Below, piece by piece: positions 4,158 to 24,745 of a stretch of DNA of 25,607 nt (position 1 is its first letter; each line of letters begins with the position of its first letter). Below the pieces are notes generated by a model, which saw nothing but the letters and a program-made list of their open reading frames with translations, did not search any database and was not told where the DNA came from. The translations under genes and the position numbers were made by a program. The stretch spans positions 1 through 25,607 of the IMG/VR virus record IMGVR_UViG_3300021963_000591; one strand, 5' to 3'. The DNA comes from a virus.

Positions 4158-7100
4158 ATGGCAACAAAGTTTAACGCAAGGCTTGGCCTTTCCGTTGGAT
4201 CAGCACCAGTCAATATACTGGATGCAAACGGCAATATAACTGCAAATACACTGGCTGTTGGTAATACTACTATTACCGGTACGGCTAATGCATCGTCAGA
4301 TATTAACGTTGGTGCAAATGTTAATCTAACCACAACCAGTATTAACGTAGGCAATTCTACTGTTAATACCTCTCTTACTTCCACCACCCTCCATACCGAT
4401 GGCGTTTTAGATGCCGGTAATACCTATATCGACGGTACTGCAAACGTGGTTGTTGCAGTCAATGTAGGTGCAAACGTAAATTTAGATACCAGTAGAATAA
4501 ACGTTGGTAACAGCACTGTTAACTCCTTCATTACTTCTACCAGTATTCATACCGACGGTACTTTAGATACTGGCAATACTTTAATTACAGGTACGGCTAA
4601 TGTAAGTTCAGACATTAACATTGGCGCAAATGTCAACTTAGATACCAGTAAGATCAATGTAGGTAATAGCACAGTTAACTCTACTATTACCTCTACCAAC
4701 ATTCATACTGCCGGTACCATTGACGGCGGTAATACAGATATTACAGGTACGGCCAACGTATCGACAGCATTAAATGTTGGCGCTAATGTTAACTTAAACA
4801 CTACTACTATCAAGGTTGGTAATAGTACTGTTAATACAAGCATTAATTCTGCCTCTATCTTTACCAGCGGAACAATCGTTGGTGGTAATACTACTATTAG
4901 TGGCTTTGCCAACGTAACTGGTAATGCTAATATTTCAGGTAATGTTGTCATTGGCGGTACAGCTACCATCACCGGTAACTTGACCGTTCAGGGTACCACC
5001 ACCTTTATTAATGCAACTAGTTTAAACATTGGTGATAATATTGTCACCCTTAATGCCGATCTTCCCAATATCATTGCACCTACTGAGAGTGCCGGATTAG
5101 AGATCAACAGAGGTAGTTCGGCTAATGTAAGCATATTATGGGATGAGTCAGCCGATGCATTCACTATGGATGTTGGTGATCAAGATTCGGTTAGACTGAA
5201 ACTTAACTCCAACACCTACGTTAGAGTCACCGATATTACTCCTACCGGGCTTAAGGAACAATGGGGTGACACATCTAGTAATAGCGCCTTTATGGCCTTG
5301 GAAATTGCCGGTGGTGAAAATGCAATCAAGAGTCAGGGTAGAGCCTTTAAGATATCAAACGGGTCATTTGATGCACTAACAGTTGCCTCTAACGGTAACG
5401 TAGGTATCAACAATACATCTCCTGGGCATACCTTAACCGTAACAGGTATTTCTAAGGTAGTAGGTAACAACGATGTAACTGATTATGTAAACGTAGGTGC
5501 TAACGTTCAGTTAAGTACCTCTAGATTATTTATTGGTAATAGCACAGTCAATACCTCTATTGAATCATACGAGATAGTTACATCTGGTGTTATCAATAGT
5601 GGTAATACAACAGTTACCGGTACATCAAACGTATCAGTTGGAATTAATGTAGGATCTAATCTTAACATTAATACAACAAGTATCAACATTGGCAACAGTA
5701 CAGTTAACTCGTTTATTAATTCTACCAGTATTCATACTGATGGTGGTCTTACCGTTGAAGGTAATACTAATATATTTGGATCTGCTAACGTTGCAACTAC
5801 TATAAACGTTGGCGCCAATGTTAACCTGAGCACTACCTCTATCAATGTTGGTAATAGTACAGTTAACTCTAGTATTAATTCGACTGCATTCTTTACTGTA
5901 GGTACAGTTACCTCTGGTAACATAATATCAAATACTGCAAACGTTGCAACTGAAGTTAATGTTGGACAGAACGTTCATTTAACTACCACTACTATCACCA
6001 TTGGTAACACCTCGGTTAATACTCATGCCAATTCGACAGCAGTATTTACCAGCGGTACAATTACAAGTGGTAACACAAACGTTACTGGTACATCTAATGT
6101 AACAGTCGGTATTAACGTAGGCTCTAATACTACTTTAGATACCGGTAAACTATTCATTGGTAATAGCACCGTTAATACCGCCCTTACCTCCAACTCTATC
6201 TTTACCAGTGGCATATTAACCAGTGGTAATTCGTTCGTGGTCGGGGTTGCAAACGTTACTGTAGGTATTAATGTTGGTGATGATATCAATGTTAATACAA
6301 CAGCCATCTATGTTGGTAATACCACCAACAATACCGCGATTACACCTACTTTGGTTGCAACCAGTAACGTGGCAGCCAGACAGATTGTTACAGTTGGATC
6401 AAATGTAAGTATTGATACAGGTAGTTTAAGCATTGGTAATTCAACAGTTAACTCTGTTCTTAACTCCATTACTCTCACCACTAATACAGCAAACGTTCAG
6501 TCAGCCGTTAACGTAGGCGCAAACGTTAATCTTTCTACTTCTAGCATCCATGTTGGTAACTCTACTGTCAACACTGTCATTGATTCAGTATCGGTAAATT
6601 CAAATACAGTAAATGCAGCAAGTGCGGTTAATGTTGGCGCAAATGTAACTGCTAATACTACAGCATTAAGAGTAGGTAATAGTACAGTTAACTCATATGT
6701 AACCAGCGGTGAGATTCACACCGATGGCGTATTGACAGTCACCGGTAATACTACTATTACAGGTTCGGCTAACATTGCAACTACAGTTAACGTAGGTGCT
6801 AATGTCAGCCTGACAACTTCAAGCGTCGTAGTAGGTAACAGTACGGTTAATTCTTATGTGTCGTATAACGGCTTTAGGTCTTATGCTAATACTACCCATT
6901 ATTCAAATTATAATTACGGTGGAATTACTGTAAATAATACGGAAGATTCAAAAAGTACTTCTTTAATTACCAGTCACCTACGATTACAAGATACCAATGC
7001 AGGTTCTGTAAGAGATGTTGCCCAGCTATCGCTGGCTAACTTAGAACTATATCTAGTAAAAGATGAGGAAGTATTTGGTTCTGCATATGCTACTAAGTTA

Positions 7101-9335
7101 TTTGCAAACACTACCTATATTGGTGTAGGCAACAGCACCGTCAATACTGCCATTACATCAACCGGTATTACTTCTGGTACAATAAGTGTAGGTAATACTA
7201 CTGTCAATGGCTCGCTTGTTGCCAACAATACCAACATTATTGGTACGGCTAATATCTCCGGTCTTCTGACTGCGGCCAGTGCAACCTTTAACGGTAACGT
7301 TGCAATTACTGGTAACCTAACAGTAACTGGTACCAGTGTAACGATTAACGCAACAAGCCTGGCTGTTCAGGATAACTTAATTTACTTAAACTCTGGTAGT
7401 ACCGTATCTAATCCTGATCTTGGTTTCGCCGGTAACTATAATGACGGCTCATACCACCATGCTGGTTTCTTCAGAGATGCTTCTGATGGTGTATGGAAAG
7501 TTTTTGATAATTACCAGCCCGAGCCTGACGTAAGTCCATACATCGATACATCTAATGCAACGTTTAGAATTGCCGACTTCCAATCTAATAACACCACTAC
7601 CGGTAACTTAACCGTTGTTGGTTCGGCTAATGCATCGGTTGGATTCAATGCAGGTGCAAACGTTAACATCAGCACCAGCACAATCAATGTAGGCAACTCG
7701 ACTGTAAATAGCTCGGTTAATTCTACTGCCATATTTGCCAGCGGAACCATCACAAGTGGTAACACCACCGTAACAGGAACGGCAAATGTTAGTACATCCG
7801 TCAATGTCGGAGCAAACGTTAACCTATCTACTACCAGTATCAACGTAGGTAATTCTACTGTTAATACTTCCGTTAATGCTACCTCGGTCAGTACTAATAC
7901 TGTTAGTGTAAGTAACGGGGTAAGTATTGGATCAAACGTTAGTGTAACTACAGGCTCATTACTGATTGGTAATAGCACCGTTAACACCGTTGTAAATGCT
8001 ACCTCGTTAAGTACCAATAATGCAACAGTAGATTACATTATAGCTAATACTGCCAACGTTGCCGGTATCGTAAACGTTGGTGCAAACGTTAACTTAACTA
8101 CCACCTATATCAACGTAGGTAACAGTACAGTTAATACAGTAATAGACAGTATTTCTGTTACCAGTAATACAGCTAATTTGGCAAGTGCAGTAAACGTTGG
8201 TGCAAACGTTACCTTAACTACATCTAGTGTTACCGTAGGCAATTCTACAGTCAACACGGTAGTTAATTCAAGCGTCATCACTACCACATCTGCCAACCTG
8301 GCCACCGGTGTACTTTTTGTAGGTGCCAACTTAACAGCCAATACTACTGCACTTAAGATAGGTAATACAACAGTCAATACTGTTATTACCAGTGAGTCTA
8401 TTACTACTAACGGTACTTTATCGGCTTACGGTAACGTAGTATTCTCTGCTTACGCCAACGTTGGTACTCAGTTAAATGTCGGTAGTAACACCAATCTTAC
8501 TGCCTCCCAGATTAATGTCGGTAATAGTAGTGGTAATACTATCCTTACAGCTACTTTAGTTTCATCGACTACTGCCAATTTAAGTTCTGAAGTCAATGTT
8601 GGTGCTAATGTTAACCTGAGCACCACCCAAATCAGTGTCGGTAATAGCACCGTTAATACTGTTATTACAAGTGCTGGGTTTATTACACCTAACGTTTCTA
8701 TAACATATGCAAACGTTGCCACCCAACTTAACGTTGGTGCAAACGTCAACCTTAGCACCACCTACATTAATGTTGGCAACAGTACTGTTAATACGTACAT
8801 TACATCTTCTGGTATTAATACAAATACTGCTAACCTATCTAACATTCTGAATGTAGGTGCTAATGTAAACTTAGGTACATCTTACTTAAGTATCGGTAAC
8901 AGTACAGTTAATACATACCTGACATCGACAGGTATTACTACCAATACCATTAATGCATACGCTATCTTAAACGTAGGCGCAAACGTTAACATTGGTACCA
9001 GTTATATCAGTATTGGTAACAGTACAGTAAATACATATATTACCAGTTCAAGTATTTACACCCAGGGCACCATTCAGGCAATTGCCAACGTAATATTTGG
9101 TGCATACGCCAACGTAGCAACTCAATTGAACGTTGGTGCTAATGTCAACTTAAATACCAGTCAAATTAACGTAGGTAATAGTACAGTCAATACAGTGATT
9201 ACCTCGACCAGTATAAATACCAATGGAACGATGACAGCGAATGTTATTTCTGTTGGTAATGTAGAACAGACCCAAATCAACCTCCAAGTTGATCCAGCAG
9301 GAACAGCTTTCTTAAATGCTTTGATATACGGATAA
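4158..9335 (+). CDS. Giant repeat-containing tail fibre/adhesin 2 (1725 aa)
   Basis: The largest protein in the window and mostly repeat shaft. VGANV/VGNSTVN units fill about residues 32-271, 441-901 and 1151-1698; I count 28 clear [VI]GN[ST]-x-x-N cores in total. The arrays are separated by a cap module at ~280-338 (LNIGDNIVTLNADLP...LEINRG), a GNVGINNTSPGHTL element near 413-431, a non-repeat insert at ~903-985 rich in Y and charged residues, and a YNDGSYHHAGFFRD cap at ~1068-1148. The cap closely matches the one in adhesin 1. The C-terminus is short (EQTQINLQVDPAGTAFLNALIYG region) with no large distal domain. This fits a shaft whose tip is another protein, possibly the next gene, which starts three bases later. 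The start follows GGGAA (4148-4152). Its role as a long fibre shaft is inferred. Confidence 0.87.
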   Translation: MATKFNARLGLSVGSAPVNILDANGNITANTLAVGNTTITGTANASSDINVGANVNLTTTSINVGNSTVNTSLTSTTLHTDGVLDAGNTYIDGTANVVVAVNVGANVNLDTSRINVGNSTVNSFITSTSIHTDGTLDTGNTLITGTANVSSDINIGANVNLDTSKINVGNSTVNSTITSTNIHTAGTIDGGNTDITGTANVSTALNVGANVNLNTTTIKVGNSTVNTSINSASIFTSGTIVGGNTTISGFANVTGNANISGNVVIGGTATITGNLTVQGTTTFINATSLNIGDNIVTLNADLPNIIAPTESAGLEINRGSSANVSILWDESADAFTMDVGDQDSVRLKLNSNTYVRVTDITPTGLKEQWGDTSSNSAFMALEIAGGENAIKSQGRAFKISNGSFDALTVASNGNVGINNTSPGHTLTVTGISKVVGNNDVTDYVNVGANVQLSTSRLFIGNSTVNTSIESYEIVTSGVINSGNTTVTGTSNVSVGINVGSNLNINTTSINIGNSTVNSFINSTSIHTDGGLTVEGNTNIFGSANVATTINVGANVNLSTTSINVGNSTVNSSINSTAFFTVGTVTSGNIISNTANVATEVNVGQNVHLTTTTITIGNTSVNTHANSTAVFTSGTITSGNTNVTGTSNVTVGINVGSNTTLDTGKLFIGNSTVNTALTSNSIFTSGILTSGNSFVVGVANVTVGINVGDDINVNTTAIYVGNTTNNTAITPTLVATSNVAARQIVTVGSNVSIDTGSLSIGNSTVNSVLNSITLTTNTANVQSAVNVGANVNLSTSSIHVGNSTVNTVIDSVSVNSNTVNAASAVNVGANVTANTTALRVGNSTVNSYVTSGEIHTDGVLTVTGNTTITGSANIATTVNVGANVSLTTSSVVVGNSTVNSYVSYNGFRSYANTTHYSNYNYGGITVNNTEDSKSTSLITSHLRLQDTNAGSVRDVAQLSLANLELYLVKDEEVFGSAYATKLFANTTYIGVGNSTVNTAITSTGITSGTISVGNTTVNGSLVANNTNIIGTANISGLLTAASATFNGNVAITGNLTVTGTSVTINATSLAVQDNLIYLNSGSTVSNPDLGFAGNYNDGSYHHAGFFRDASDGVWKVFDNYQPEPDVSPYIDTSNATFRIADFQSNNTTTGNLTVVGSANASVGFNAGANVNISTSTINVGNSTVNSSVNSTAIFASGTITSGNTTVTGTANVSTSVNVGANVNLSTTSINVGNSTVNTSVNATSVSTNTVSVSNGVSIGSNVSVTTGSLLIGNSTVNTVVNATSLSTNNATVDYIIANTANVAGIVNVGANVNLTTTYINVGNSTVNTVIDSISVTSNTANLASAVNVGANVTLTTSSVTVGNSTVNTVVNSSVITTTSANLATGVLFVGANLTANTTALKIGNTTVNTVITSESITTNGTLSAYGNVVFSAYANVGTQLNVGSNTNLTASQINVGNSSGNTILTATLVSSTTANLSSEVNVGANVNLSTTQISVGNSTVNTVITSAGFITPNVSITYANVATQLNVGANVNLSTTYINVGNSTVNTYITSSGINTNTANLSNILNVGANVNLGTSYLSIGNSTVNTYLTSTGITTNTINAYAILNVGANVNIGTSYISIGNSTVNTYITSSSIYTQGTIQAIANVIFGAYANVATQLNVGANVNLNTSQINVGNSTVNTVITSTSINTNGTMTANVISVGNVEQTQINLQVDPAGTAFLNALIYG
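4250..4970 (+). repeat. Repeat array A of adhesin 2
   Basis: Four long-form (~52 residue) units with spacers such as SxxIHTDGTLDTGNTxITGTANVSS. This is the most regular stretch in the window. Successive units share long near-identical blocks at the protein level but differ at third codon positions. Confidence 0.8.
5480..6865 (+). repeat. Repeat array B of adhesin 2
   Basis: About ten VGANV/VGNSTVN units with mixed spacer lengths. Some cores are altered (IGNTSVNT, VGNTTNNT, VGDDINVNT), indicating diversification. The array ends at a non-repeat insert at about 6865-7110. Confidence 0.8.
7610..9250 (+). repeat. Repeat array C of adhesin 2
   Basis: About twelve units, mostly the short form with spacers like TTNTANLSNILN or the variant FGAYANVATQLN. 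The latter recurs near 8445, 8700 and 9100. This array runs almost to the C-terminus of the protein. Confidence 0.8.
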
Positions 9336-12743: not shown

Positions 12744-12998
12744 ATGTCATTAACCAAAATCACAATTATTGATCAAATCACCGTAACTGAAACCGGTGGC
12801 GTTTTCTACCGTGAAGCAACACGCATCATGGAAGACGGTAACGAATTAAGCAAAACCTACCATCGCAGCAGCTTAATACCAGGGCAAGACTTAACTGGTA
12901 TACCAGCCAACGTTGCTGCAATCTGTAACACAGTATGGACAGAAGAGGTTATTGCTGCCTACCAGGCACAAGTTGCATCTCATATTGTCGGAACTTAA
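12744..12998 (+). CDS. Small conserved protein after adhesin 3 (84 aa)
   Basis: An 84-residue protein beginning SLTKITIIDQITVTETG, with YREATRIMEDGNELSKTYHR in the middle and TVWTEEVIAAYQAQVA near the end. I recognise this as a type of small protein often encoded just after a fibre gene in T4-like and other marine phages. No function is established that I know of. By analogy with fibre-linked assembly helpers it may assist folding or attachment of adhesin 3. AAGGAAA lies a few bases before the ATG, a good Shine-Dalgarno, unlike the adhesin gene that follows. The 66-base gap before it holds no clear promoter or terminator. Confidence 0.8.
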   Translation: MSLTKITIIDQITVTETGGVFYREATRIMEDGNELSKTYHRSSLIPGQDLTGIPANVAAICNTVWTEEVIAAYQAQVASHIVGT

Positions 12999-13005
12999 AT
13001 AAATA
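12998..13005 (+). promoter_or_regulatory. AATAAATA late-promoter-like element before adhesin 4
   Basis: AATAAATA starts on the last base of the preceding stop codon and ends 7 bases before the ATG at 13012. It differs from the T4 late element TATAAATA at one base. If it acts like T4 late promoters, transcription would start about at the ATG itself. No Shine-Dalgarno is visible. The same arrangement occurs before two more adhesin genes. Confidence 0.45.
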
Positions 13006-13011
13006 TAAACC

Positions 13012-15843
13012 ATGCCATACATAGGTAATCAGCCGTTCGGAAAGACAGTACGAACAGTAACAACAGAAACAATCGCCAGTGCCAAAACTGCCTACTATCC
13101 TAACGGTGGGTACATGGCTGGCTATGTTGACGTATTTGTCAACGGTGTACGTCTATCGGAGTCATTAGACTTTACTGCCACCGATGGATCTTTGGTCACC
13201 TTACTCTATACCCCAAGCAGCGGGGATACGGTAGAGATAGTAACGTATGGATCGGTAGAAATTGCCAATGCCGTCAGACGTTCAGGTGATACCTTTTCTG
13301 GTAACGTCTACGTTGGTTCTAATGTATACATTTCAACCAGCACCATCAGTGTTGGTAATGCCACCGTTAACACCCAGATAACCGCCGGTAACATAGCCTT
13401 AAACGGCTCCACATTGACCATTGGTAACAGTACCGTCAATACGGTGTTCACCGGGGATACGGTGACCGTTGGTGGATCGTTAAGTTTAGGTAATACTGCC
13501 ATTACCGGTACGGCCAATGTAACCACGACCATCAACGTTGGTACTAACGTGTCTATGAACACCACCTCCATCAGGGTAGGTAATAGCACCATCAACACAT
13601 ACATTGTTTCTGACACTATTTACGGTCCTTCGACATTGTATATTGATCCGGCTGCCGCCGGCGACAATACCGGGCTGGTGGTAGTTAAAGGTGACTTACA
13701 GGTCGATGGTACAACATTTATTATCAATAGTGCCAACGTTACTGTTAACGATAAGAATGTGGTGTTGGCCAGTGGGGCTATTAATAATGCTGCCACCGAT
13801 GGGGCCGGTCTAACTATTTACGGCACCAATGCCAACCTGACCTATAATGCTACCGGCAATAACTTTGAAATGTCCAGGGGGTTGAGTGTCACAGGAACGG
13901 CTAACGTATCTGTTGCCTTGAACGTTGGCGCCAACGTCAATTTAAGCACCAGTCAAATTAACGTAGGTAATAGTACAGTCAATACTGTTATTACCTCCAC
14001 ATTACTGAGTACTAACGGTATTACTGTTGCTGGAGGTACAGCTAATGGTGTGGCCTATCTCAATAGCTCAAAGGTTTTAACCACAGGCAGTGCGCTGACT
14101 TTTGATGGAACAACGCTAACTAACACTAGAAATACTACAGACGGATCTGCATCTACCTTGACGTTAAATAACAGCGGTGCTACAGGGTCTTATGCTACGC
14201 TGAATCTTAATGCAGGATCAGTTACATACCAGCAATTTTCTGATGCAGCGGGTAATGCTATTGGTACTGCTGGTGCAATGTTTCGTACTACTAGCAATCA
14301 TCCATTAATCTGGGGAACTAATAACACCGAGCGCATGCGCCTTGACTCCAGTGGTAACTTGGGCATTGGGACGAATTCACCTGCTGCAAGGCTTTCTTTT
14401 GGTGGTTATATCCCCTCGGATGGACAGACTGTTCATATTTACAACTCGGGTAATGTGCGGTCAGGTCTTGGTGTTGTATCCGGCGTCTACCGAGTATTTA
14501 CAGACAGCGGGTCAGTTCTTTCGTTTGGGCAAGTTAGCACATCAGATGGCTCGACTTACACCGAACGCGCCCGTATCGACTCCAGCGGTAACTTGCTGGT
14601 GGGGATTTCAAGTGGTTCCTATAAATTCATGGTTGGTGACGGTACAAGAAATATGACTATTAACCCAAATAGCATAATGGATGGCATTTTTTTAGGAACC
14701 ACTACAGCCAAACCTTTAATTTTTGGAACTACAGACACAGACCGTGCCCGTTTCGACACAAGCGGTAACCTAGTCATAGGCAACACATCTGCCTGGGGAC
14801 GCTTGCATGCTACTAAATCGGTAAATAACACCAATGCTTCGGCCACCAACATATCCGATTATCAAAATGCAACGTTCATTTTACATAATCAGGATGATGT
14901 AGGAACTGGCAATAAAGCAGGTATGTTCTTTGCATTTGCCGGCTCCCCAGGTATTCTAGCTGGCATGGATGGGTATAAGGTAAGTGGTAACTGGAATACC
15001 GGACTTCGTTGGTATACTAACAATTCAACCGGTGTCAACACAGGTAATTTTACCGAACGTATGCGCCTGGATCCTGACGGTCGCTTGGGATTGGGTGTTA
15101 CCTCGCCTACCTGGATGCTAGAAGTTCAAGGAGCCCAAGAATCGTTGGCATCATTTAGACCAAGTACTAGTACCAGCGCTGGATATGCTCGTTTTATTAA
15201 TGGAGGTGGAACGTTTTACATTGGCATTGAGTCTTCCAATGGTACAAGAATTTCTGCTTCTGGGCTTGCTTATGCTGCTTCTATGACCACCGAGGGCAAC
15301 ACAGCATTAACGTTTGGTACTAATAATACAAACCGCATGACCATTGACACCAGCGGTAACTTGGTGGTGGGAGGTACAACTGCTTATAGCGCACGTCTTT
15401 ATGTTCAGGGAAATTCTCTAGGTAGCAGTGGAACTTTGTATAAGTTTGGTGATCAACATACTTATAAATGGGGTGGGTATAACTCACAGGTTGGAAACTC
15501 TGGCAGAACCTTGTTTGCTTATGGTTATGATCCGTTAAATTGGAATTATCACTATTTAAAACTCAAAATTAAGCGTGGTTACTATTACGCCTCTGGTTAT
15601 GCTGAATATATGATTAACTGTCAAAATGGAACAGTAACTCAAGTTTCTCAAACAGACTCTGGTACCACCACCTCCTCTATCACTCTATCAAATAATACAG
15701 TCAATTCAAACTATAGAATTACTACGGTTTCATTTGTCTCTCCTGCTAACTACACTACATGGGATTTTGAACTTGAATTCTGGGGTATGACCCCGGTGAG
15801 CTGGACCACTACCCCAGGGGCAGGTAACATAGCTCTAAATTAA
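13012..15843 (+). CDS. Modular tail fibre/adhesin 4 (943 aa)
   Basis: The N-terminus (PYIGNQPFGKTVRTVT, then GYVDVFVNGVRLSESLDFT and TPSSGDTVEIVTYG, residues 1-85) is the attachment-type domain seen in many cyanophage and marine phage fibres. VGNSTVN-type repeats run at ~97-200. A divergent cap (INSANVTVNDKNVVLASGA) lies at ~234-273, followed by one more repeat at ~295-330. The linker GGTANGVAYLNSSKV at ~340 is nearly the same as in adhesin 5. ERMRLDSSGNLGIGT-type modules run from ~435 to ~800. The C-terminal ~130 residues (YKWGGYNSQVGNSG, then LKLKIKRGYYYASGYAEY and WDFELEFWG) are unlike those of the other adhesins and probably form the receptor-binding tip. No S74 domain is visible. A chaperone-like gene follows after nine bases. 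Confidence 0.86.
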   Translation: MPYIGNQPFGKTVRTVTTETIASAKTAYYPNGGYMAGYVDVFVNGVRLSESLDFTATDGSLVTLLYTPSSGDTVEIVTYGSVEIANAVRRSGDTFSGNVYVGSNVYISTSTISVGNATVNTQITAGNIALNGSTLTIGNSTVNTVFTGDTVTVGGSLSLGNTAITGTANVTTTINVGTNVSMNTTSIRVGNSTINTYIVSDTIYGPSTLYIDPAAAGDNTGLVVVKGDLQVDGTTFIINSANVTVNDKNVVLASGAINNAATDGAGLTIYGTNANLTYNATGNNFEMSRGLSVTGTANVSVALNVGANVNLSTSQINVGNSTVNTVITSTLLSTNGITVAGGTANGVAYLNSSKVLTTGSALTFDGTTLTNTRNTTDGSASTLTLNNSGATGSYATLNLNAGSVTYQQFSDAAGNAIGTAGAMFRTTSNHPLIWGTNNTERMRLDSSGNLGIGTNSPAARLSFGGYIPSDGQTVHIYNSGNVRSGLGVVSGVYRVFTDSGSVLSFGQVSTSDGSTYTERARIDSSGNLLVGISSGSYKFMVGDGTRNMTINPNSIMDGIFLGTTTAKPLIFGTTDTDRARFDTSGNLVIGNTSAWGRLHATKSVNNTNASATNISDYQNATFILHNQDDVGTGNKAGMFFAFAGSPGILAGMDGYKVSGNWNTGLRWYTNNSTGVNTGNFTERMRLDPDGRLGLGVTSPTWMLEVQGAQESLASFRPSTSTSAGYARFINGGGTFYIGIESSNGTRISASGLAYAASMTTEGNTALTFGTNNTNRMTIDTSGNLVVGGTTAYSARLYVQGNSLGSSGTLYKFGDQHTYKWGGYNSQVGNSGRTLFAYGYDPLNWNYHYLKLKIKRGYYYASGYAEYMINCQNGTVTQVSQTDSGTTTSSITLSNNTVNSNYRITTVSFVSPANYTTWDFELEFWGMTPVSWTTTPGAGNIALN

Positions 15844-15852
15844 GGAAATATT

Positions 15853-16203
15853 ATGCAGTTTAAATATAATTTTTTTTACAAAACACCATTAATGTTAAGA
15901 GACATTTCTTTATTGTCAGATCCAAACACGGTTGTTATGCTAGAAAATGATGAAAATAATGGAAAAACATTTAAAGAAATATACGGGTTTACTGATGAAG
16001 AGGTCATGGAATTTGTTACCCGGGCTAAATGGATTCAGGTGAGGGAGTACCGTGATGCTGAATTAAAAGCATCTGATTGGACTCAGGTAGCAGATGTACC
16101 TTCTTCTATTCAAGAACCATGGGCTGTGTACAGAGATGCTTTAAGAAATTTACCTCAACAATTTACTGATCCAGATGATGTAATTTTTCCAGACAAGCCT
16201 TAA
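15853..16203 (+). CDS. Probable tail-fibre assembly chaperone (116 aa), partner of adhesin 4
   Basis: The C-terminal half (REYRDAELKASDWTQ, DVPSS, WAVYRDALRNLPQQ, DPDDVIFPDKP) matches the pattern of the phage tail assembly chaperone family (Phage_tail_APC, Pfam PF16778 from memory). That family is usually encoded immediately after a fibre gene. The N-terminal half (QFKYNFFYKTPLMLRDIS... ENDENNGKTFKEIYGFTDEEV) is different from that of the paralogue at 18790. The gene starts nine bases after adhesin 4 stops, with AAGGAAA as Shine-Dalgarno. Known members help fibre trimerisation or folding; that this one serves adhesin 4 is inferred from adjacency. It is negatively charged overall and lacks membrane segments. 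Confidence 0.8.
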   Translation: MQFKYNFFYKTPLMLRDISLLSDPNTVVMLENDENNGKTFKEIYGFTDEEVMEFVTRAKWIQVREYRDAELKASDWTQVADVPSSIQEPWAVYRDALRNLPQQFTDPDDVIFPDKP

Positions 16204-16257
16204 ACTAGGTTGTTAAACTTAAATTAAAATGAACACACTCCTATTAGTCTTTAATTA

Positions 16258-16265
16258 AATAAATA
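16258..16265 (+). promoter_or_regulatory. AATAAATA late-promoter-like element before adhesin 5
   Basis: AATAAATA ends 7 bases before the ATG at 16272, the same spacing as before adhesin 4. It lies in a 68-base AT-rich gap with no other obvious signal and no Shine-Dalgarno. It is one base away from the T4 late element. Confidence 0.45.
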
Positions 16266-16271
16266 ACCAAA

Positions 16272-18782
16272 ATGACAAGAGCAAGATACGTATCCAACCC
16301 CCAGGCAATTGACATACCTTTAACGGTATCGGCCAATCTTACTGCCAACGCCGTCATTACTGTAGGTAACTCCTCAGTAAACTCTGTCATCACGTCTAAT
16401 ACGTACAGTGTGGGGTCGAACGTCAGTCTGAGTACATCCAGATTGTTCTTAGGCAATAGCACGGTTAATTCAGTGCTTACTGCGTCCACCTTAGACGTTG
16501 GTGCCAATGTTAACTTGTCAACGGTGGGCCTTAACGTCGGTAGTAATACAGTTAATGCATATATTAACTCTACCTCCTTTGCCATCGGTAATAGCACGGT
16601 TAATACCGCCATTACTTCTACCACCATTACCAGCACCGCCTTACTGTCTATAGGTAATACTAATATAACAGGTACGGCCAACGTCAGCACTGGTATTAAC
16701 GTTGGTGCAAACGTTAACCTTGGTACAGCCTACATGGATGTAGGTAATAGCACCGTTAATACTACTATTACTAATATTACAGTCAGTACCAATACAGTTA
16801 ACGTAGCTAGCATTATTAACGTTGGTGCAAACGTTTCGGCCAATACTACAGCACTAAGAGTCGGTAATAGCACGGTTAATACCGTCATTACTTCTACATC
16901 ACTGAGTACTAACGGGATTACTGTTTCTGGAGGCACAGCCAATGGCGTTGCCTATCTCAATAGCTCAAAGGTGGTGACCACGGGTAGTGCGCTGGTGTTT
17001 GATGGTACGAATTTGGGTGTGGGAACAACTACAGCCCTTGGCCGTGTTACTACCGCAGGCAGCGGCGATCAGAGTATCTGGTTCACGCACACAGACAACG
17101 TACCGGCCCGCACAGTCACGTTGCGCCTTGGTAACAGCGATTCAACATATAAAACTTACAGTCCGTATGTACAGGCAATTGAAGGAAGTGGCTTTGATAA
17201 TTACTCGTTGGCGTTCGGTACTTCAAATAGCTCGTCTGGAGGTGCTGTCGAACGTGCCCGTATCGACTCTAGCGGTAACTTGCTAGCGACAGGTGGGTTT
17301 ATACCTACTAATACAAGTAGATTGGTTGTTCGTGGATATAGTGCAATATCGTATAATAATACTTTCTCTACAGCTAATGCTACAGTTCAAATTATTAGTG
17401 ATGAGATGTCAGTCAATCAGTGGTATCCTACAGTAAATATCACAATGGTCCGCCAATCACTTACCACCGGTGCCAATTCATTTGGTGGTATTGGCTTCTC
17501 TACCATTGACGACTCTAACAACTCAGGCATGTACGATGCCGGTCGTATAGCAATAGTTAATGATACAGGATCGGCAGTTGCCTCTGGCACCTCCATGGCC
17601 TTTTATACCCAGGTAGGAAGTTCTAATACAGTTAATGCAGCTATAGAGCGTATGCGCATTGACTCTAGTGGTAACGTAGGTGTTGGAACTAGTTCACCCT
17701 CTTTTAAACTGGATATAGCCGGCGGAGATGATACTAATTCACTGAGAGTTTTCGGTAATTCAACCTACGGGCCTGCTATAAGACTTCAATATACTGGTAC
17801 TGGAGGTAAGGCCTGGAATATTATTTCCAATTCAGGAGGTAATGCAGGTGGTGCTGGTGCACTTCAATTCTGGAACAGTACGGATTCTGTTACTGCGATG
17901 GTCATTAATCCTTCCGGTAATATAACTGCTGTACAGGCCGGTCAAAATATGGCCCTTGGAAATACATCGGCAAGTCTGACCGGGGCAGCTTTAACTGTCT
18001 ATGGTTGGGACGGCAGCATTTCCGCTTATACGACGAGAGCTGAATCACCCTATAATGCTGCTCTCAATATAGGTAACCTTCCTACATCTGGGGCCGGTAC
18101 GGGTACAGGTATAGTGTTTAGAGCTGCCTCTTCTACTAATACCAACAGATCTCAAGGAGAAATATTTACTTATTGGACTACTAATACTGACTCCACTAGA
18201 TATTCAGAAATGGTATTTAGAAACAGTTTTAATTCTTCTATGGTTAATACGATGATTTTAACCTCCAATTGTAATATAAAAACTAATGAAGGGGTTATAA
18301 GTCCGTTAATTTATATTAATCGTTCTTATGAAGTAGCAGGAGCAAACAGTTCATTTAGCTATAATGATCTAACCTCAAACGGCTCAATAGTAAACTTAAA
18401 GGACCATCCATCAAGCGGACTTAATTCTATGTTTCATAGCGGCTTTAGTCCTGCATCATACAATGAAGAAACTATGAATTGGAGATACGTAAGGATTATT
18501 TTTAGAGGTACCCGTGCAGGTAATTCCTATGATAATACAGCAGTATCTTTTAGAACAGCATATTATTTCTATGGAACAGGATGGACTTATGTAGGAGGAA
18601 CGGTTACCACTACTTCTACTGATAGTGATAGAGGTGCTAGAACTATTGTACTTCCTTGGATAAGCTCAAGTGATTTTGGAGCAAATGGATTTGACGTGCC
18701 AGGATTAGGAATTGTAATGACTAATAATGGTGGAAGTGTAACTTACAGGCTTGCTGCTGCTTATATACAGTTTAAATATTAG
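16272..18782 (+). CDS. Modular tail fibre/adhesin 5 (836 aa)
   Basis: It begins TRARYVSNPQAIDIPLTVSA and then goes straight into VGNSTVN-type repeats (~24-207), with no cap module. The linker GGTANGVAYLNSSKVVTTGSA (~217-244) nearly matches adhesin 4. Modules with ERARIDSSGNLLA, ERMRIDSSGNVGVGTSSPSFKLDI and further variable blocks follow. The last ~160 residues (from SPLIYINRSYEV through RYVRIIFRGTRAG and YFYGTGWTYVGGT to the terminal YIQFKY) are unique in the window and rich in aromatic residues, as expected for a receptor-binding tip. The DNA of this C-terminal part is clearly more AT-rich than the shaft: 20 G+C in 18301-18360 against 26 in 16501-16560 by hand count. This fits a tip of separate origin. 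A chaperone-like gene follows. Confidence 0.86.
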   Translation: MTRARYVSNPQAIDIPLTVSANLTANAVITVGNSSVNSVITSNTYSVGSNVSLSTSRLFLGNSTVNSVLTASTLDVGANVNLSTVGLNVGSNTVNAYINSTSFAIGNSTVNTAITSTTITSTALLSIGNTNITGTANVSTGINVGANVNLGTAYMDVGNSTVNTTITNITVSTNTVNVASIINVGANVSANTTALRVGNSTVNTVITSTSLSTNGITVSGGTANGVAYLNSSKVVTTGSALVFDGTNLGVGTTTALGRVTTAGSGDQSIWFTHTDNVPARTVTLRLGNSDSTYKTYSPYVQAIEGSGFDNYSLAFGTSNSSSGGAVERARIDSSGNLLATGGFIPTNTSRLVVRGYSAISYNNTFSTANATVQIISDEMSVNQWYPTVNITMVRQSLTTGANSFGGIGFSTIDDSNNSGMYDAGRIAIVNDTGSAVASGTSMAFYTQVGSSNTVNAAIERMRIDSSGNVGVGTSSPSFKLDIAGGDDTNSLRVFGNSTYGPAIRLQYTGTGGKAWNIISNSGGNAGGAGALQFWNSTDSVTAMVINPSGNITAVQAGQNMALGNTSASLTGAALTVYGWDGSISAYTTRAESPYNAALNIGNLPTSGAGTGTGIVFRAASSTNTNRSQGEIFTYWTTNTDSTRYSEMVFRNSFNSSMVNTMILTSNCNIKTNEGVISPLIYINRSYEVAGANSSFSYNDLTSNGSIVNLKDHPSSGLNSMFHSGFSPASYNEETMNWRYVRIIFRGTRAGNSYDNTAVSFRTAYYFYGTGWTYVGGTVTTTSTDSDRGARTIVLPWISSSDFGANGFDVPGLGIVMTNNGGSVTYRLAAAYIQFKY

Positions 18783-18789
18783 GAAAAAA

Positions 18790-19131
18790 ATGTTTAATTA
18801 CGATAATTGGATGAGCTATACTTGGGAACATGAAGGTAAGATCTTTCAAACAGATCCTATGGGGCTTGTTCCCTCCCCTACTAATTCTAACGAGTTGGTA
18901 CCTTTATATAATTTAATAAATTTAAGTGAAGAAAGGGCAAGAACTATTTCTTATGAATGGAGGTTAAAACAGCTTCGTTTATATAGAGATAAACTTATCG
19001 CTGAAACTGACTGGTGGGTCTTACCAGATATAAATCCTTCTCCAGCCCAGCTTAAATACAGACAGGATCTTAGAGATTTAACTAATAATTTTGATCCGGA
19101 TGCAACACCAAATTTCCCAGTCAAACCTTAA
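18790..19131 (+). CDS. Probable tail-fibre assembly chaperone (113 aa), partner of adhesin 5
   Basis: The C-terminal half (LRLYRDKLIAETDWWVLPD, then LKYRQDLRDLTNNFD and FPVKP) matches the tail assembly chaperone pattern (Phage_tail_APC type) and is paralogous to the 116-residue protein at 15853. The N-terminal half (MFNYDNWMSYTWEHEGKIFQ and on) is different. I place the start at 18790 because AGGA lies just before it. A possible upstream in-frame ATG at 18751 would read inside the adhesin 5 gene and lacks a Shine-Dalgarno. Like its paralogue it probably helps fold or trimerise the fibre encoded immediately upstream. Confidence 0.8.
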   Translation: MFNYDNWMSYTWEHEGKIFQTDPMGLVPSPTNSNELVPLYNLINLSEERARTISYEWRLKQLRLYRDKLIAETDWWVLPDINPSPAQLKYRQDLRDLTNNFDPDATPNFPVKP

Positions 19132-19155
19132 TTGCATAAGTTGATCTCCAACAAC

Positions 19156-19163
19156 AATAAATA
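19156..19163 (+). promoter_or_regulatory. AATAAATA late-promoter-like element before adhesin 6
   Basis: AATAAATA ends 6 bases before the ATG at 19169, with no Shine-Dalgarno between. It is the third copy of the same arrangement (after 12998 and 16258). By the T4 late rule the transcript would start at or within a base or two of the start codon. Confidence 0.45.
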
Positions 19164-19168
19164 AAAAC

Positions 19169-21517
19169 ATGGCCTTAGATAAAGTACTATCAGCATCGAT
19201 TGCAAACGGCGCCGTTACTGCCGCCCTCATCTCTAACACCGCCAACTTGGTGGTTAGTTCTCTCACGGCCAACGTAATTACGATCACCACCATCAGTGGA
19301 TCGGCCAACGTCACCGGTGATATGACTGTCGGTGGCAACCTTACTATATCAGGCACCACCACATATGTCAACACCACCGATTTGAACATTGGTGATGCAA
19401 TCATATCTTTGAATGCCGATTTAGCAGCCAATGTGTCACCAACAGAAAATGCCGGTTTAAATATCAACCGTGGCGCCAGCACAAACGCCCAATTTGTATG
19501 GGTAGAGTCTACCGATAATTGGTCTTTGGGTAATACCAGTATTGGCGGTACATTAGCAACAACATCAAATACAGTTACTTTAGGTACAGCAGCATACTTT
19601 GTAGCAAATGGTAATGTAGGTGTAGGGACTGCAAGTCCTGTTGCAAAACTTCAAATTGTTTCTGATAATCCTTTTAGATTAAACAATGCCGCAAGCAGTT
19701 CACAAGCCGATTTATATTTTGCGGATTCTGGTGCAACGCTAAAAGTTGAAAACTTTTTTGGTACTGGGTCAGCAATCACATTTGGCACTAATGCAAATGG
19801 CGCAGGGGTAACAGAAAAAGCCCGTATCGACTCCAGCGGTAACTTGGGTGTTGGGACTACTGGGCAAGTTTCAAGGATTTCTGCTTCGGGAAATTCAGCC
19901 ACCGATTTTAAAGCATTAACTCTTAGAAATTCAAATGGTACAGCTAATTCATCTGCAGTTTTAAATTTTGAATCATCAGCGGGGGCTGAAGGTGATGCAG
20001 CATCAAGTGCGGCTCAAATTAAAGGCGTCAGAGAAGGTGCAGGAACTAATGGCGCTTTGGCATTTTGGACAAGTTTATCTGGTACATCAGCAGAACGCGC
20101 CCGTATCGACTCCAGCGGTAACTTGATTGTTGGCGGCACAACCGCACTAAATACGTCATCAGGTCGTGGAAATATAACGCTTAATGGAGCAAATGGCGCT
20201 ATTTTACAATTTTCTGTTGGCGGTGCTGATAAAGGTTGGATATTCCATGACAGCACAAACTTAGCAATGCAAAACACAACGGGAAGCGGCTCGTTGATTT
20301 TTAATACAAACAACACAGAACGAGCCCGTATCGACTCCAGCGGTAACTTGCGTGTTGGCACTACCTCTAGTTTAAGTGTCGCCGACAAACTGACTGTGGT
20401 TGGCGGTAACTTTGCGGTGCAAAGAACAAGCGGTATTACCACCTTTATGGGGGACAACACGGTAGACGGGTATGCCGGGACTGCTACCAATCACGCATTT
20501 GCATTGCTAACCAACAGCATAGAGCGTGCCCGTATTGACACCAGCGGTAATTTGGGAGTGGGTGTTACAAGTATTGCTACTCCATCAGCATCTCGCAGAG
20601 CTATGCAAATAAGCAATAGTACTTCAGGTGGTATAATATATTTAGGAAGCGCTGGAACTGAAGGAGATAATGCAAGAATCTTTTCAACTATTTCAACGCA
20701 ATATGACTTAGGGCTAGTGGCAGGTGGTTCAACTGGATTTATTAACTTTTACACAAACGGCCAAGAACGAGCCCGTATTAAATCCAATGGTTATATGGGT
20801 ATTGGAACAGACTCACCAGTACTAAGACTGCATGTGTCTGATTCAAACGGTTCAGGGTCTATGCAGCTTGGATCTAACGCTGCAAGTCAATATCAATACT
20901 TTAATTTTGGTGGGGAAGCTGGCGGACAAAATGCCTGGCAGATAGGTAAGGCAGATGCTGGAGGCGCAATTGCTCCTTCCCAGGGATTTTATCTATATGA
21001 CCTAAAAAATTCTACAACAAGAATGGTTGTTAACACCAGCGGTTATGTAGGTATTGGTACCACATCACCGTCTTATATATTAGATGTTAACGGTATGGCA
21101 AGGGTAACTGGATTCCAGAACAACTCCCTTTATAGTTATAATATGATAGGCACATATACTGGAAGTACCTGGTATGCCATTACCGACGGTGGTACTATGG
21201 CTCAACCTGGGGTTTATATCTGTGTAATGTATGTTGATAGTTATAACATAGGAGGTGCTGTATACTATTACACTTTTGCAAGTGTACCTTTTTACTGGAC
21301 GGGTAATACTGTTGGCTCAAATGGCACATACGCACAAGTACTTCCAACTATGTACGGTACCGGGCATGCCTTAAATAGCCAAACTCCTCCATCATTAAGG
21401 ATTATTGAACGCACTAGCGGTCTGACACCGCAGTTACAATTCTCGCTCCCATTCACCTTAACCTATAGCGGGACCTCAGGTAGTCAATTAATTTTTAACT
21501 TTACAAAAATTGCGTAA
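19169..21517 (+). CDS. Modular tail fibre/adhesin 6 (782 aa)
   Basis: A short N-terminus (ALDKVLSASIANGAVTAALI) leads to a cap module at ~58-121 (YVNTTDLNIGDAIISLNADL...LNINRGAST). This cap is the closest match to the one in adhesin 3, including the following SNTVTLGTAAY-x-x-ANGNVGVGTASP linker. Unlike the other adhesins it has essentially no VGNSTVN shaft. The rest is a chain of RARIDSSGN[L]xVG modules (about six) with variable blocks between. The C-terminal ~135 residues (NSLYSYNMIGTYTGSTWYAI, PGVYICVMYVDSYNIGG, then LTYSGTSGSQLIFNFTKI) look like a distinct tip. A fibre whose shaft was lost, or a short tail fibre equivalent, are both possible. The next gene is a 61-residue protein, not a chaperone of the APC type. 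Confidence 0.86.
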   Translation: MALDKVLSASIANGAVTAALISNTANLVVSSLTANVITITTISGSANVTGDMTVGGNLTISGTTTYVNTTDLNIGDAIISLNADLAANVSPTENAGLNINRGASTNAQFVWVESTDNWSLGNTSIGGTLATTSNTVTLGTAAYFVANGNVGVGTASPVAKLQIVSDNPFRLNNAASSSQADLYFADSGATLKVENFFGTGSAITFGTNANGAGVTEKARIDSSGNLGVGTTGQVSRISASGNSATDFKALTLRNSNGTANSSAVLNFESSAGAEGDAASSAAQIKGVREGAGTNGALAFWTSLSGTSAERARIDSSGNLIVGGTTALNTSSGRGNITLNGANGAILQFSVGGADKGWIFHDSTNLAMQNTTGSGSLIFNTNNTERARIDSSGNLRVGTTSSLSVADKLTVVGGNFAVQRTSGITTFMGDNTVDGYAGTATNHAFALLTNSIERARIDTSGNLGVGVTSIATPSASRRAMQISNSTSGGIIYLGSAGTEGDNARIFSTISTQYDLGLVAGGSTGFINFYTNGQERARIKSNGYMGIGTDSPVLRLHVSDSNGSGSMQLGSNAASQYQYFNFGGEAGGQNAWQIGKADAGGAIAPSQGFYLYDLKNSTTRMVVNTSGYVGIGTTSPSYILDVNGMARVTGFQNNSLYSYNMIGTYTGSTWYAITDGGTMAQPGVYICVMYVDSYNIGGAVYYYTFASVPFYWTGNTVGSNGTYAQVLPTMYGTGHALNSQTPPSLRIIERTSGLTPQLQFSLPFTLTYSGTSGSQLIFNFTKIA

Positions 21518-21547: not shown

Positions 21548-21555
21548 TATAAATA
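21548..21555 (+). promoter_or_regulatory. Exact T4-type late promoter TATAAATA
   Basis: The octamer TATAAATA is identical to the T4 late promoter consensus and lies in the 73-base gap after the last adhesin. Transcription would begin near 21561, giving a ~30-base leader that contains GGAGA before the ATG at 21591. It probably drives the small protein and the neck/packaging genes. Confidence 0.65.
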
Positions 21556-21782: not shown

Positions 21783-21790
21783 CATAAATA
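21783..21790 (+). promoter_or_regulatory. Late-promoter-like CATAAATA before gp13
   Basis: CATAAATA differs from the T4 late consensus at one base. It lies in the 33-base gap before gp13, upstream of a clear AGGAG (21800-21804). Together with the exact element at 21548 it would give the neck gene block two closely spaced late starts. Confidence 0.5.
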
Positions 21791-22565: not shown

Positions 22566-23300
22566 ATGTCAACATCAGTTTTCTTTAATAACTTTCAATC
22601 CAGTCAGGAACAACTCCTGATAGAAGATTTGGTGCTTGAAAGCATCCGGATCTATGGTATTGACTTATACTATCTCCCAAGAACTAGAACGGCCTTTGAT
22701 TCGTTATATGGGGAAGATACTCTATCGGTGTTTTCTAGATATTACTTCGTTGATATGTACGTTAAGAATGTGGATGGGTTTGATGGTGATGGGGACTTTA
22801 TTTCTAAGTTTGGTTTAGAGATAAGAGATAGAATGACATTAACTATTTCACGTCGTGTATTTAACGACGAGATAGGTAACCTAGAAAACATTCAAAGACC
22901 TCAGGAAGGTGATTTAATCTTCTTCCCACTCAACAACAAGATCTTTGAAATTAAGTTTGTTGAACATGAATCGGTATTCTATCAGATGGGTGCCTTACAG
23001 ACCTACGATCTTACCTGTGAATTATTTGAATACGGTAGTGAGAAATTCGATACCGGCATTACTAATATTGACAGTCTGTATACTAAGAACTATCTTACCG
23101 ACCTTAACTATTCTACCGCTATTACCGACTTCTCCATTAAGACCGAATACATCTATGATGAGTATCTAACAGATGAAGAGGGTAGACGTCTGTTGATTGA
23201 ACAGTACTTAGAAGTTGGTGATAGTGAAATTATTCAAAGTGAGTCCGATGGCTTTATTGACTTTAGTGAACTCAATCCATTCAGTGAGGGAGTTTACTGA
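22566..23300 (+). CDS. 14: Neck protein gp14 (T4-like)
   Basis: A 244-residue homologue of T4 gp14, partner of gp13 in the neck. Matches include LVLESIRIYGIDLYYLPR (T4: VAESIQMRGVECYYVPR), LYGED, a VDGFDGDGDFISKFGLEIRD block (T4: FFSKFGMEVQDEVTLSI) and EGDLIFFPLNNKIFEIKFVE (T4: [20 protein letters not shown]). The C-terminus ends NPFSEGVY. There is no strong Shine-Dalgarno, and only 12 bases separate it from gp13, which suggests coupling. Its last 20 bases overlap the 3' end of the opposite-strand homing endonuclease gene, so that element inserted precisely at the end of gp14 without removing its conserved terminus. Confidence 0.93.
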   Translation: MSTSVFFNNFQSSQEQLLIEDLVLESIRIYGIDLYYLPRTRTAFDSLYGEDTLSVFSRYYFVDMYVKNVDGFDGDGDFISKFGLEIRDRMTLTISRRVFNDEIGNLENIQRPQEGDLIFFPLNNKIFEIKFVEHESVFYQMGALQTYDLTCELFEYGSEKFDTGITNIDSLYTKNYLTDLNYSTAITDFSIKTEYIYDEYLTDEEGRRLLIEQYLEVGDSEIIQSESDGFIDFSELNPFSEGVY

Positions 23301-23898
23301 TGTTTTTTACATCTTTATCCCTTACTAACCAGCTTTTAGATATAGCTATAGACTGTTGCTGTCTTTTTTCTTTTGATTCCCACCGTCTTAGAGCAGCAGC
23401 TCTATAACGTTCCTTTTGCTCTTCAGTGCGGATAATTTTAGGCATTGCATCATTTTTTCTTTTTAATGCCCATGTCTCTTTGGCTGTGCGGTTTCTTTTG
23501 TCAGCCCATTCTTTATCTAGCCATTTATTCTTTACACCGTTAGAAACCTTCATAGCATAGGCTACATCATCCCATTTTTTCTTACTAGCCTTACTATATG
23601 CAGCTGCATCTCCATTTATAGCCTTATTATCTGTCCTATTGATCCATTTAGTATCTTTTATTACCTTTAATCTTCTAAGGACTATATGCTCCCATAAAAT
23701 AGCAGATTCCCTTGTATTAAATACTTTACGAACTTCTACTATATTAGGTAGTCCATTTTCTGCTATGAATTGCTTTACGTATTTTGATGAGCTAAAGTAA
23801 GTATTACCAATTTCAGTAATATCACAACCCTTACTGTAGCGGACACCATAGTAATACTTGCCTTGAATAGACCAACCTAATAAATACGTGTACGGCAT
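23281..23898 (-). CDS. GIY-YIG-type homing endonuclease (putative)
   Basis: A 205-residue protein on the strand opposite to all other genes. The N-terminus carries a GIY-YIG-like core: YTYLLGWS, then KYYYGVRYSKGC (YYYG as the YIG element with a following Arg). TYFSSSKYVKQFI comes next, and WEHIVLRRL near residue 70 could supply the metal-binding Glu. This variant is common in free-standing phage homing endonucleases. The C-terminal part is very basic, with repeated KKKW, KNKW and RRWES elements plus a SIAISKSW motif, similar to NUMOD-like DNA-binding modules. Such enzymes cut a site in related phages lacking the gene and spread it by repair. Its position between gp14 and gp15 suggests the cut site is in one of them. 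Whether it is active cannot be told; no frame break is seen. Start ATG is at 23896-23898. Confidence 0.8.
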   Translation of the reverse strand: MPYTYLLGWSIQGKYYYGVRYSKGCDITEIGNTYFSSSKYVKQFIAENGLPNIVEVRKVFNTRESAILWEHIVLRRLKVIKDTKWINRTDNKAINGDAAAYSKASKKKWDDVAYAMKVSNGVKNKWLDKEWADKRNRTAKETWALKRKNDAMPKIIRTEEQKERYRAAALRRWESKEKRQQQSIAISKSWLVRDKDVKNISKLPH

Positions 23899-23900
23899 AA

Positions 23901-23908
23901 TTTAAATA
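23901..23908 (+). promoter_or_regulatory. Late-promoter-like TTTAAATA before gp15
   Basis: TTTAAATA differs from the T4 late consensus at one base. It points toward gp15 and would start transcription near 23914, just before the AGGAG at 23918. It would restore gp15 expression downstream of the inserted opposite-strand gene. It forms half of an inverted repeat with the element on the other strand (TAAATA-AAAG-TATTTA, 23903-23918). Confidence 0.45.
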
Positions 23909-23912
23909 AAAG

Positions 23913-23920
23913 TATTTAGG
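23913..23920 (-). promoter_or_regulatory. Late-promoter-like CCTAAATA driving the homing endonuclease
   Basis: Read on the minus strand this is CCTAAATA, the same octamer as at 424-431 before adhesin 1. It lies 15 bases before the endonuclease ATG. No Shine-Dalgarno is clear between it and the start. It shares bases with the gp15 Shine-Dalgarno on the plus strand. Confidence 0.4.
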
Positions 23921-23922
23921 AG
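23918..23922 (+). promoter_or_regulatory. Shine-Dalgarno AGGAG that decides the gp15 start
   Basis: AGGAG ends 7 bases before the ATT at 23930 but about 50 bases before the first standard start codon (GTG at 23972). Its placement supports initiation at ATT. Confidence 0.65.
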
Positions 23923-23929
23923 AACTAAA

Positions 23930-24745
23930 ATTTTCGGTCAAACTTACTATCATAAGACACTAAGAAAATATGTGTCACTATTTGGTACTCTATTTAATGA
24001 TATTTACATTAATAGAACCGATTTAGAAAATAATGACATTCAGACCTTAAAGGTACCTATTACCTACGGTCCAAAGAATAAGGGACTGGCAAGACTGACC
24101 AGTGATCCTAAACTCAATCGTCCATTTGAAGTGCAATCGCCAGTTATTTCATTTGAAATGACAGGTATGACTTATGCCTCCGATAGAAAATTAAATACAG
24201 TAAGAAAACACAGTATTAAGGTAGATACAGGTAATTCTGAAAAAGTTCAATACGCATATAATCCTGTACCCTATGATATTAATTTTTCATTGTACGTATA
24301 TACCAAGTATGCCGAAGATGGTACAAGGGTATTAGAACAGATTCTTCCTTACTTTACACCCGATTGGACGGCTACCATTAACTTGATTCCAGAACTGGAT
24401 ATCAAAATGGATATCCCGGTAGTTATTCAGAGTGTTAATTCTGAGGATTCTTATGAGGGAGCTGTTGACGAGAGACGATTTATTATCTGGACTTTAAACT
24501 TCGTCATGAAGGGCTATATGTTTGGCCGTGTTCGTACTTCCGAAATCATTACATTGGCCAACACCAATTTCTATTCCGATCTTACCGCAACTCCTACATA
24601 TGATAATATTACCATCATGCCAGGTTTGCTGGCTAATGGTTCTCCTACCACCAATTCATCTCTTTCTATAGATAGAAAGCAAATTGTAGAGACCGATGAT
24701 TGGGCGTATATCATAACCAAGGATACGATTGAGAAAAATGGATGA
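23930..24745 (+). CDS. 15: Tail sheath stabiliser/tail terminator gp15 (T4-like), probable ATT start
   Basis: Homologue of T4 gp15, the ring that caps the tail tube and sheath and joins the tail to the neck. Matches include LFGTLFNDIYINR, VPITYGPK, YNPVPYDINFSLYVYTKY, RVLEQILPYFTPDW (T4: QIVEQILPYFQPHF) and RRFIIWTLNFVMKGYMFGRV. The first standard start (GTG, 23972) would drop the conserved N-terminus. In the same frame upstream the codons read ATT then FGQTYYHKTLRKYVSLFG, aligning with T4 MFGYFYNSSFRRYATLMG. The ATT falls exactly at the Met position, AGGAG is 7 bases upstream, and a TAA at 23903 closes the frame. With this start the protein is 271 residues, against about 272 in T4. A T-for-G change or sequencing error in an ATG is the alternative. 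The gene overlaps gp16 by eight bases. Confidence 0.88.
   Translation: MFGQTYYHKTLRKYVSLFGTLFNDIYINRTDLENNDIQTLKVPITYGPKNKGLARLTSDPKLNRPFEVQSPVISFEMTGMTYASDRKLNTVRKHSIKVDTGNSEKVQYAYNPVPYDINFSLYVYTKYAEDGTRVLEQILPYFTPDWTATINLIPELDIKMDIPVVIQSVNSEDSYEGAVDERRFIIWTLNFVMKGYMFGRVRTSEIITLANTNFYSDLTATPTYDNITIMPGLLANGSPTTNSSLSIDRKQIVETDDWAYIITKDTIEKNG

Follow-up and report, generated by a model that had tools for sequence, protein, structure and literature searches.

The window analysed here, a stretch of 25,607 bp, is an IMG/VR virus record whose gene families were assigned from PHROGs and Pfam matches. Judged by these genes its source is a T4-like phage, since it encodes the neck proteins gp13 and gp14, a tail sheath stabilizer, tail fibres and two helper proteins of family PF16778. 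The tail fibres and the two helpers precede gp13, gp14 and the tail sheath stabilizer.

Promoter-like octamers at the fibre genes

Three fibre genes, from here fibres 4, 5 and 6, each have a copy of the octamer AATAAATA directly before the start codon. A small gene of unknown function (12744..12998, +; phrog_6228), led by the Shine-Dalgarno (SD) sequence AAGGAAA, lies ahead of fibre 4, and its TAA stop codon shares the first octamer base at 12998. This octamer (12998..13005, +) is the predicted late promoter of fibre 4; in T4 geometry transcription would start at the C in position 13011, one base 5′ of the ATG at 13012. Fibre 4 (13012..15843, +) is a tail fibre of 943 aa (phrog_18345, E 9.8e-22) with a predicted leader of 0–1 nt. 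The following helper gene (15853..16203, +) encodes a PF16778 tail assembly chaperone, and its SD, AAGGAAA, overlaps the fibre 4 stop codon. The second octamer (16258..16265, +), the predicted late promoter of fibre 5, would set the start at the A in position 16271, again one base 5′ of the ATG at 16272. Fibre 5 (16272..18782, +; 836 aa) found no match in the PHROGs and Pfam searches and was assigned by its position and its similarity to fibres of the related phage G001. Its stop codon overlaps the SD, AGGAAA, of the second PF16778 tail assembly chaperone gene (18790..19131, +). The third octamer (19156..19163, +), the predicted late promoter of fibre 6, places the start at 19169 on the A of the ATG, and fibre 6 (19169..21517, +; 782 aa; tail fibre, phrog_18345, E 6.9e-23) is predicted to be leaderless.

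The original prediction had described an octamer adjoining three fibre start codons without an SD, next to genes that have ribosome sites, and all of this was borne out. Its distances of 7, 7 and 6 count up to the A, while the bases intervening between ATAAATA and the ATG, the gap used here, number 6, 6 and 5 at fibres 4, 5 and 6. Upstream of each of the three ATGs the anti-SD duplex energy was +1.6 kcal/mol, scored with the anti-SD of E. coli as a stand-in for that of the host. The ribosome sites of the genes at 12744, 15853 and 18790 are present. The abundance of the octamer was dropped as evidence, being at chance level in the window (five copies of AATAAATA versus 3.55 expected, with 26 of 100 shuffles reaching five); it is the placement, not the frequency, that stands out, as seen in the excess at gap 5 in 34 related sequences. 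No terminator-like site was found ahead of the three octamers, so read-through transcription could occur there.

Two further late promoter-like elements with downstream SDs, TATAAATA at 21548..21555 (+), 35 nt 5′ of a 61-aa open reading frame (21591; SD GGAG), and CATAAATA at 21783..21790 (+), 19 nt 5′ of gp13 (21810; SD GGAG), have by their sequence the ordinary spacing and serve as an internal comparison for the tight fibre sites. Another copy of TATAAATA (9212–9219, +) lies within a large fibre gene (4158–9335), 119 nt ahead of the next small gene. A homing-endonuclease-like gene on the minus strand (23281–23935; phrog_314) separates gp14 from a gp15-like gene; in G001 gp14 and gp15 are direct neighbours and gp15 has an ATG start. 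The gp15 frame of the window opens at an ATT (23930), possibly its start codon, with AGGAG at 23918–23922 and AATAAATA upstream at 23879.

Comparison with the closest relative

The closest relative is G001 (164 kb), with a gp13 that is 96% identical. Its gaps at fibres 4–6 are 6, 6 and 5, as in the window, and GATAAATA replaces AATAAATA at its fibres 5 and 6. Conservation of the full octamer was thus rejected: the first base varies among relatives, while ATAAATA and the gaps are kept in G001, so that of the proposed conservation the heptamer and its distance stood and the octamer did not. From these alignments the conserved unit is the heptamer ATAAATA with a free first octamer base. Ungapped comparison with G001 gave identities of 19/46 upstream, 17/17 from the octamer to the ATG and 57/60 after the ATG at fibre 4; the corresponding values were 12/46, 16/17 and 58/60 at fibre 5 and 19/46, 16/17 and 55/60 at fibre 6. 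By this measure the block of promoter and start is retained between the two phages and most of the preceding sequence has diverged, with the proviso that the low upstream value at fibre 4 partly reflects a 3-base shift, because the preceding gene is conserved.

Within G001 the heptamer occurs 34 times on the plus and twice on the minus strand. A reversed-pattern control for NATAAATA was discarded, ATAAATA being identical when read backwards. The fourth tight site of G001 lies ahead of the baseplate wedge gene gp8.

The start of fibre 4 is backed by the other loci with an MPYIG start among the matches listed. Of these, 28/28 have GGAG upstream (GGAGG in 17), and ATAAATA was absent, by eye, from the 45 nt upstream in these relatives. 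The relatives of fibre 6 other than G001 align from residue 19 or later and their starts thus fall outside the comparison. Among the relatives examined, the three fibre promoters therefore appear to be conserved only to G001. The N-terminal parts alone of fibres 4–6 align to their G001 counterparts (residues 1–699, 1–265 and 1–470), and the fibre tips (within 13012–21517) differ from those of G001, as in tip exchange. An extended block, CCAACAAC(G/A)ATAAATA, is found at fibres 5 and 6 of G001 (110323–110356 and 112940–112972) and at fibre 6 of the window (19148–19171), and is possibly a recombination site.

Distance between heptamer and start codon in related phages

For a census we paired ATAAATA with in-frame ATG codons within 60 nt in 34 related sequences (384 pairs) and called gaps of 4–7 tight. 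Gaps 4, 5, 6 and 7 occurred 2, 22, 8 and 1 times, followed by 9 pairs at gaps 8–13, 241 at 14–35 and 96 at 36–60. Twenty permuted heptamers averaged 1.2 pairs at gap 5, none of them exceeding 4, compared with the 22 of ATAAATA; their means were 11.2 at gaps 8–13 and 61 at 14–35. Each of the 21 single-mismatch heptamers scored at most 2 at gap 5. The count of 8 at gap 6 is below the 10 of the permuted AATAAAT, a one-base shift of the same site. Tight pairs were found in 17/34 sequences, orthologs included, and many tight cases are not independent. A strong SD was present at 1/33 tight genes versus 65–75% of those at gaps of at least 14. Start-codon choice was uninformative as a signature (31 ATG, one GTG and one TTG at tight genes; 306 ATG and 29 others at SD-led genes).

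In a looser count over 81 sequences there were 9 pairs at gap 5; the pooled 4–7 bin, with 14 pairs, did not surpass all permuted heptamers (maximum 15), and the 8–13 bin (2) lay below all of them (range 7–21). A hold-out set consisted of 78 gp23 loci, G001 and one already listed contig being left out, and its contig names were not found among the contigs of the earlier sequence lists. Here gap 5 occurred 15 times, whereas permuted heptamers averaged 0.4 and reached at most 3, and a strong SD was scored at 0/18 tight genes versus 156/172 at gaps 14–35. Gaps 8–13 occurred 10 times in the hold-out versus a permuted 5.2, and 8 of these 10 genes have an SD; short SD-led leaders thus exist and the trough is no prohibition. 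Depletion at gaps 8–13 was rejected as proof, as it holds in the 81-sequence count only and in neither the 34-sequence nor the hold-out count.

No tight pair was found in the T4 late regions or in Syn33, XG4, Cr30, G003 and G007. CTAAATA replaces ATAAATA at gap 5 in HTVC008M (L524, upstream of 151) and in the locus L395 (upstream of 1791). Its 50 pairs at gaps 14–35 (rank 3 of the 21 single-mismatch heptamers) suggest that CTAAATA may be an accepted late-promoter variant.

Predicted transcription start

According to a review on T4, the first base of the octamer is −13, which makes the sixth base after the octamer +1. A gap of 5 places the A of the ATG on this position and a gap of 6 leaves one extra base; the distance is exact at fibre 6 and one base off at fibres 4 and 5. 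Initiator preference was tallied at 322 distinct SD-led promoters with a gap of at least 17. The sixth base after the motif was A in 200/322 (62%; 74% of 19 in T4 alone) and a pyrimidine-purine step was found there in 127/322 (39%, about 20% elsewhere). Among near relatives alone (n = 94) the signal was weak, with A at 54% and the step at 30%, and 31% two bases later. After removal of duplicates, 27 tight and 333 other sequences were kept, and C or T directly precedes the ATG in 23/27 of the former versus 152/333 of the latter. At fibre 4 it is plausible that the start slips by one base from the C at 13011 to the A.

Other virion genes with the same geometry

Tight spacing was found in 7/10 gp8 orthologs, G001 included, down to 52% identity; of the remaining three, two are without the heptamer and the third has it at gap 18, together with an SD-like stretch (10 of 11 loci, L195 being left out because its start is missing). 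The gp8 of G006 is tight as well, as are gp4 (head closure) in three contigs, gp2 (DNA end protector) in Melnitz-3 and Mosig, and the tail tube gene (gp19) in G021 and Mosig.

In the Mosig-related tail-tube clade ATAAATA stands at exactly gap 5 in 66/76 orthologs (76 of 80 loci, four without the first residue being left out) and at no other gap within the 30 nt examined. The 66 tight copies have 10 different spacers, every one ending in T or C. An SD-like match was scored in 11/38 tight genes of the tail-tube set, and none of the 66 tight orthologs has an SD within −13 to −4. The other 10 orthologs include L395 (CTAAATA, gap 5) and L416–L418 (AAAAGGAG). An intrinsic terminator lies just 5′ of the octamer in 58/62 octamer-bearing copies with 100 nt upstream, in 1/10 copies without the heptamer (L395) and in 0/76 coding control segments; transcripts of those 58 genes would therefore start between the terminator and the ATG. 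The tail-tube ATG of Mosig matches the depositors' annotation, and in HTVC008M the CTAAATA at gap 5 precedes the annotated tail-tube start. In Melnitz-3 (L525, 122–151) a frame of 8 codons begins at the tight ATG. The annotated start of the tail tube comes just after this frame, behind AAAAGGGA, an arrangement possibly representing a leaderless mini-frame ahead of an SD-led tail-tube gene.

Late-transcription genes

Homologs of gp55 (phrog_234) and gp33 (phrog_254) were detected in 11/11 genomes searched, G001 included; the window is a fragment outside those genes. The gp45 clamp family (PF02916) gave matches in 7/11 genomes at E <= 0.001, two of them over the cut-off, and is a weak match in G001 (E 3.4e-4, below the cut-off). 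RegA homologs were present in 6/6 genomes searched.

Discussion

The octamers are probably T4-type late promoters (NATAAATA) fused to the start codon, giving leaderless or near-leaderless mRNA. Leaderless late mRNA is well supported in silico by the peak at gap 5, the absence of an SD, the repeat in the hold-out set, and the conserved gap and terminators of the tail-tube genes. The promoter type and leaderless outcome put forward originally are likewise favoured by the −13 numbering, the preferred A at the sixth base and the SD-less peak at gaps 5–6. From the sequences we infer promoter use, start site and leaderless translation as follows. Host RNA polymerase with the phage sigma factor gp55 and with gp33 would read the octamers. 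Transcription would begin on the A of the ATG (gap 5) or one base earlier (gap 6), possibly with a one-base slip to the A, and with the promoter so near to the start codon the mRNA would be leaderless or nearly so. The ribosome would then recognise the 5′-terminal AUG without SD pairing. Late genes of this phage group would thus come in two arrangements, with the promoter fused to the start or at least 14 nt upstream and followed by an SD.

The link to fibres drawn in the original prediction, in which the arrangement sets the stoichiometry of fibre to chaperone, is too narrow and that reading is probably wrong. The same geometry precedes gp8, gp4, gp19 and gp2, which ruled out fibre-specific regulation; with baseplate, head-closure, tail-tube and DNA-end-protector genes sharing it, and with orthologs being either leaderless or SD-led, it would not be a device for fibres and chaperones. 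Moreover, the helper SDs overlap or follow the stop codon of the preceding fibre, placing each helper downstream of that fibre on the same likely transcript rather than pairing it with the next one.

That the promoter is real and the true 5′ end lies off the ATG, through a start a few bases upstream or processing of a longer transcript, would yield a short leader. Fibres 4 and 5, whose gap of 6 leaves one base in T4 geometry, and the weak start-site signal among near relatives fit this; the exact spacing of 5 bases in 66/76 tail-tube orthologs, the pyrimidine that precedes the ATG in 23/27 tight sequences, which is typical of a start site, and the lack of an SD fitting such a leader in the 66 tight tail-tube orthologs make it unlikely. 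We regard as very unlikely the alternative, already raised originally, that the AT-rich octamer acts as an enhancer of translation, such as an S1-type site, on a longer read-through mRNA. The fibre genes do lack an SD and have no terminator-like site upstream that would prevent read-through in the window, but an enhancer leaves unexplained why ATAAATA is also enriched 14–35 nt before SD-led genes (241 versus 61), the peak at gap 5 is absent for single-mismatch heptamers of similar composition, and the terminators at 58/62 octamer-bearing tail-tube genes would stop the read-through.

An effect of chance or AT composition at gene starts would agree with the chance-level octamer count of the window and with the pooled 4–7 bin of the 81-sequence count; set against the gap-5 counts (22 versus a permuted maximum of 4, and 15 versus 3 in the hold-out) and a tail-tube spacing that is conserved while the spacer sequence varies, it is extremely unlikely. 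RB69 RegA, according to the accessible text of PMC3014915, selects A+U-rich RNA of the AAUAAUAAUAAnA type, and since RegA homologs are present in the genomes searched, an operator for this translational repressor in the AAUAAAUA stretch is not dismissible by absence of the protein. Such an operator would explain neither the promoter-type distribution nor the fixed spacing of 5 nt, the preference for a pyrimidine ahead of the ATG and the free first octamer base, and we give it practically no credence.

The promoter-start fusion resembles the late promoters of T4 (TATAAATA; gp55, gp33, gp45) and of cyanophages (NATAAATA) in its heptamer core, its free first base and the virion genes downstream; the relatives carry gp55 and gp33 homologs, and A is favoured at the sixth base after the motif, as in T4. 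T4 differs in that 0/21 gene-linked sites in its late regions (70–169 kb) have a gap of 4–7, whereas here a subset has the start codon on +1. The whole T4 genome holds three tight ATAAATA-ATG strings, none at an annotated gene start in the regions examined. Bacterial leaderless 'TA-led' genes, as described in the accessible sections of PMC3160421, have a −10-type element about 10–12 bp before the start codon and no SD, the same criterion as used here, but rely on host sigma promoters, whereas the element here would be a phage late promoter. For the late-only translation of T4 gene e, the available text of PMC3014915 has promoter choice decide translatability, as proposed here; there early transcripts fold into a hairpin that masks the ribosome site, whereas here no leader is predicted. 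The lambda cI mRNA also begins at its own AUG, but cI is one regulatory gene in a temperate phage, whereas the tight genes recur as a class among late virion genes. Kasugamycin is reported to spare leaderless translation (PMC4929434 and PMC5230787). No description of leaderless late genes in T4-like phages was found in the accessible parts of the literature on late promoters, leaderless mRNA, cyanophages and pelagiphages and ONT-cappable-seq, a body of text that does not cover the Syn9 transcriptome. The AR9 paper, in the portion available, remarks in passing that phage transcripts are frequently leaderless. The paper on Melnitz, with its 15 predicted late promoters, makes no mention of tight spacing in the text examined. 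While each component is known, what appears to be new is the combination of a T4-type late promoter with leaderless initiation.

The purpose of the fusion is a matter of speculation. SD-less read-through transcripts would be poorly translated, so that translation would be coupled to late transcription; compactness would be the simpler alternative. More tentatively, and with some doubt on our part, ATAAATA-N5-ATG could be a second late expression mode in many T4-like phages other than coliphages. The first transcribed base would be the A of the start codon and, there being no leader, translation of a tight gene would require its own gp55-dependent transcript, which would confine the expression of virion genes, that of the tail tube included, to the late phase. 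When the sequence ahead of a gene is exchanged, the element would stay with the 5′ end of that gene.

For gene calling, promoter-start fusions may flag true start codons that lack an SD. If the proposed leaderless late mRNAs are real, they would offer a natural system for the competition between 5′-AUG and SD initiation late in infection and a natural test of whether leaderless starts couple translation to late transcription. Aquatic T4-like phages would then use leaderless initiation recurrently in their late virion genes, that of the tail tube among them.
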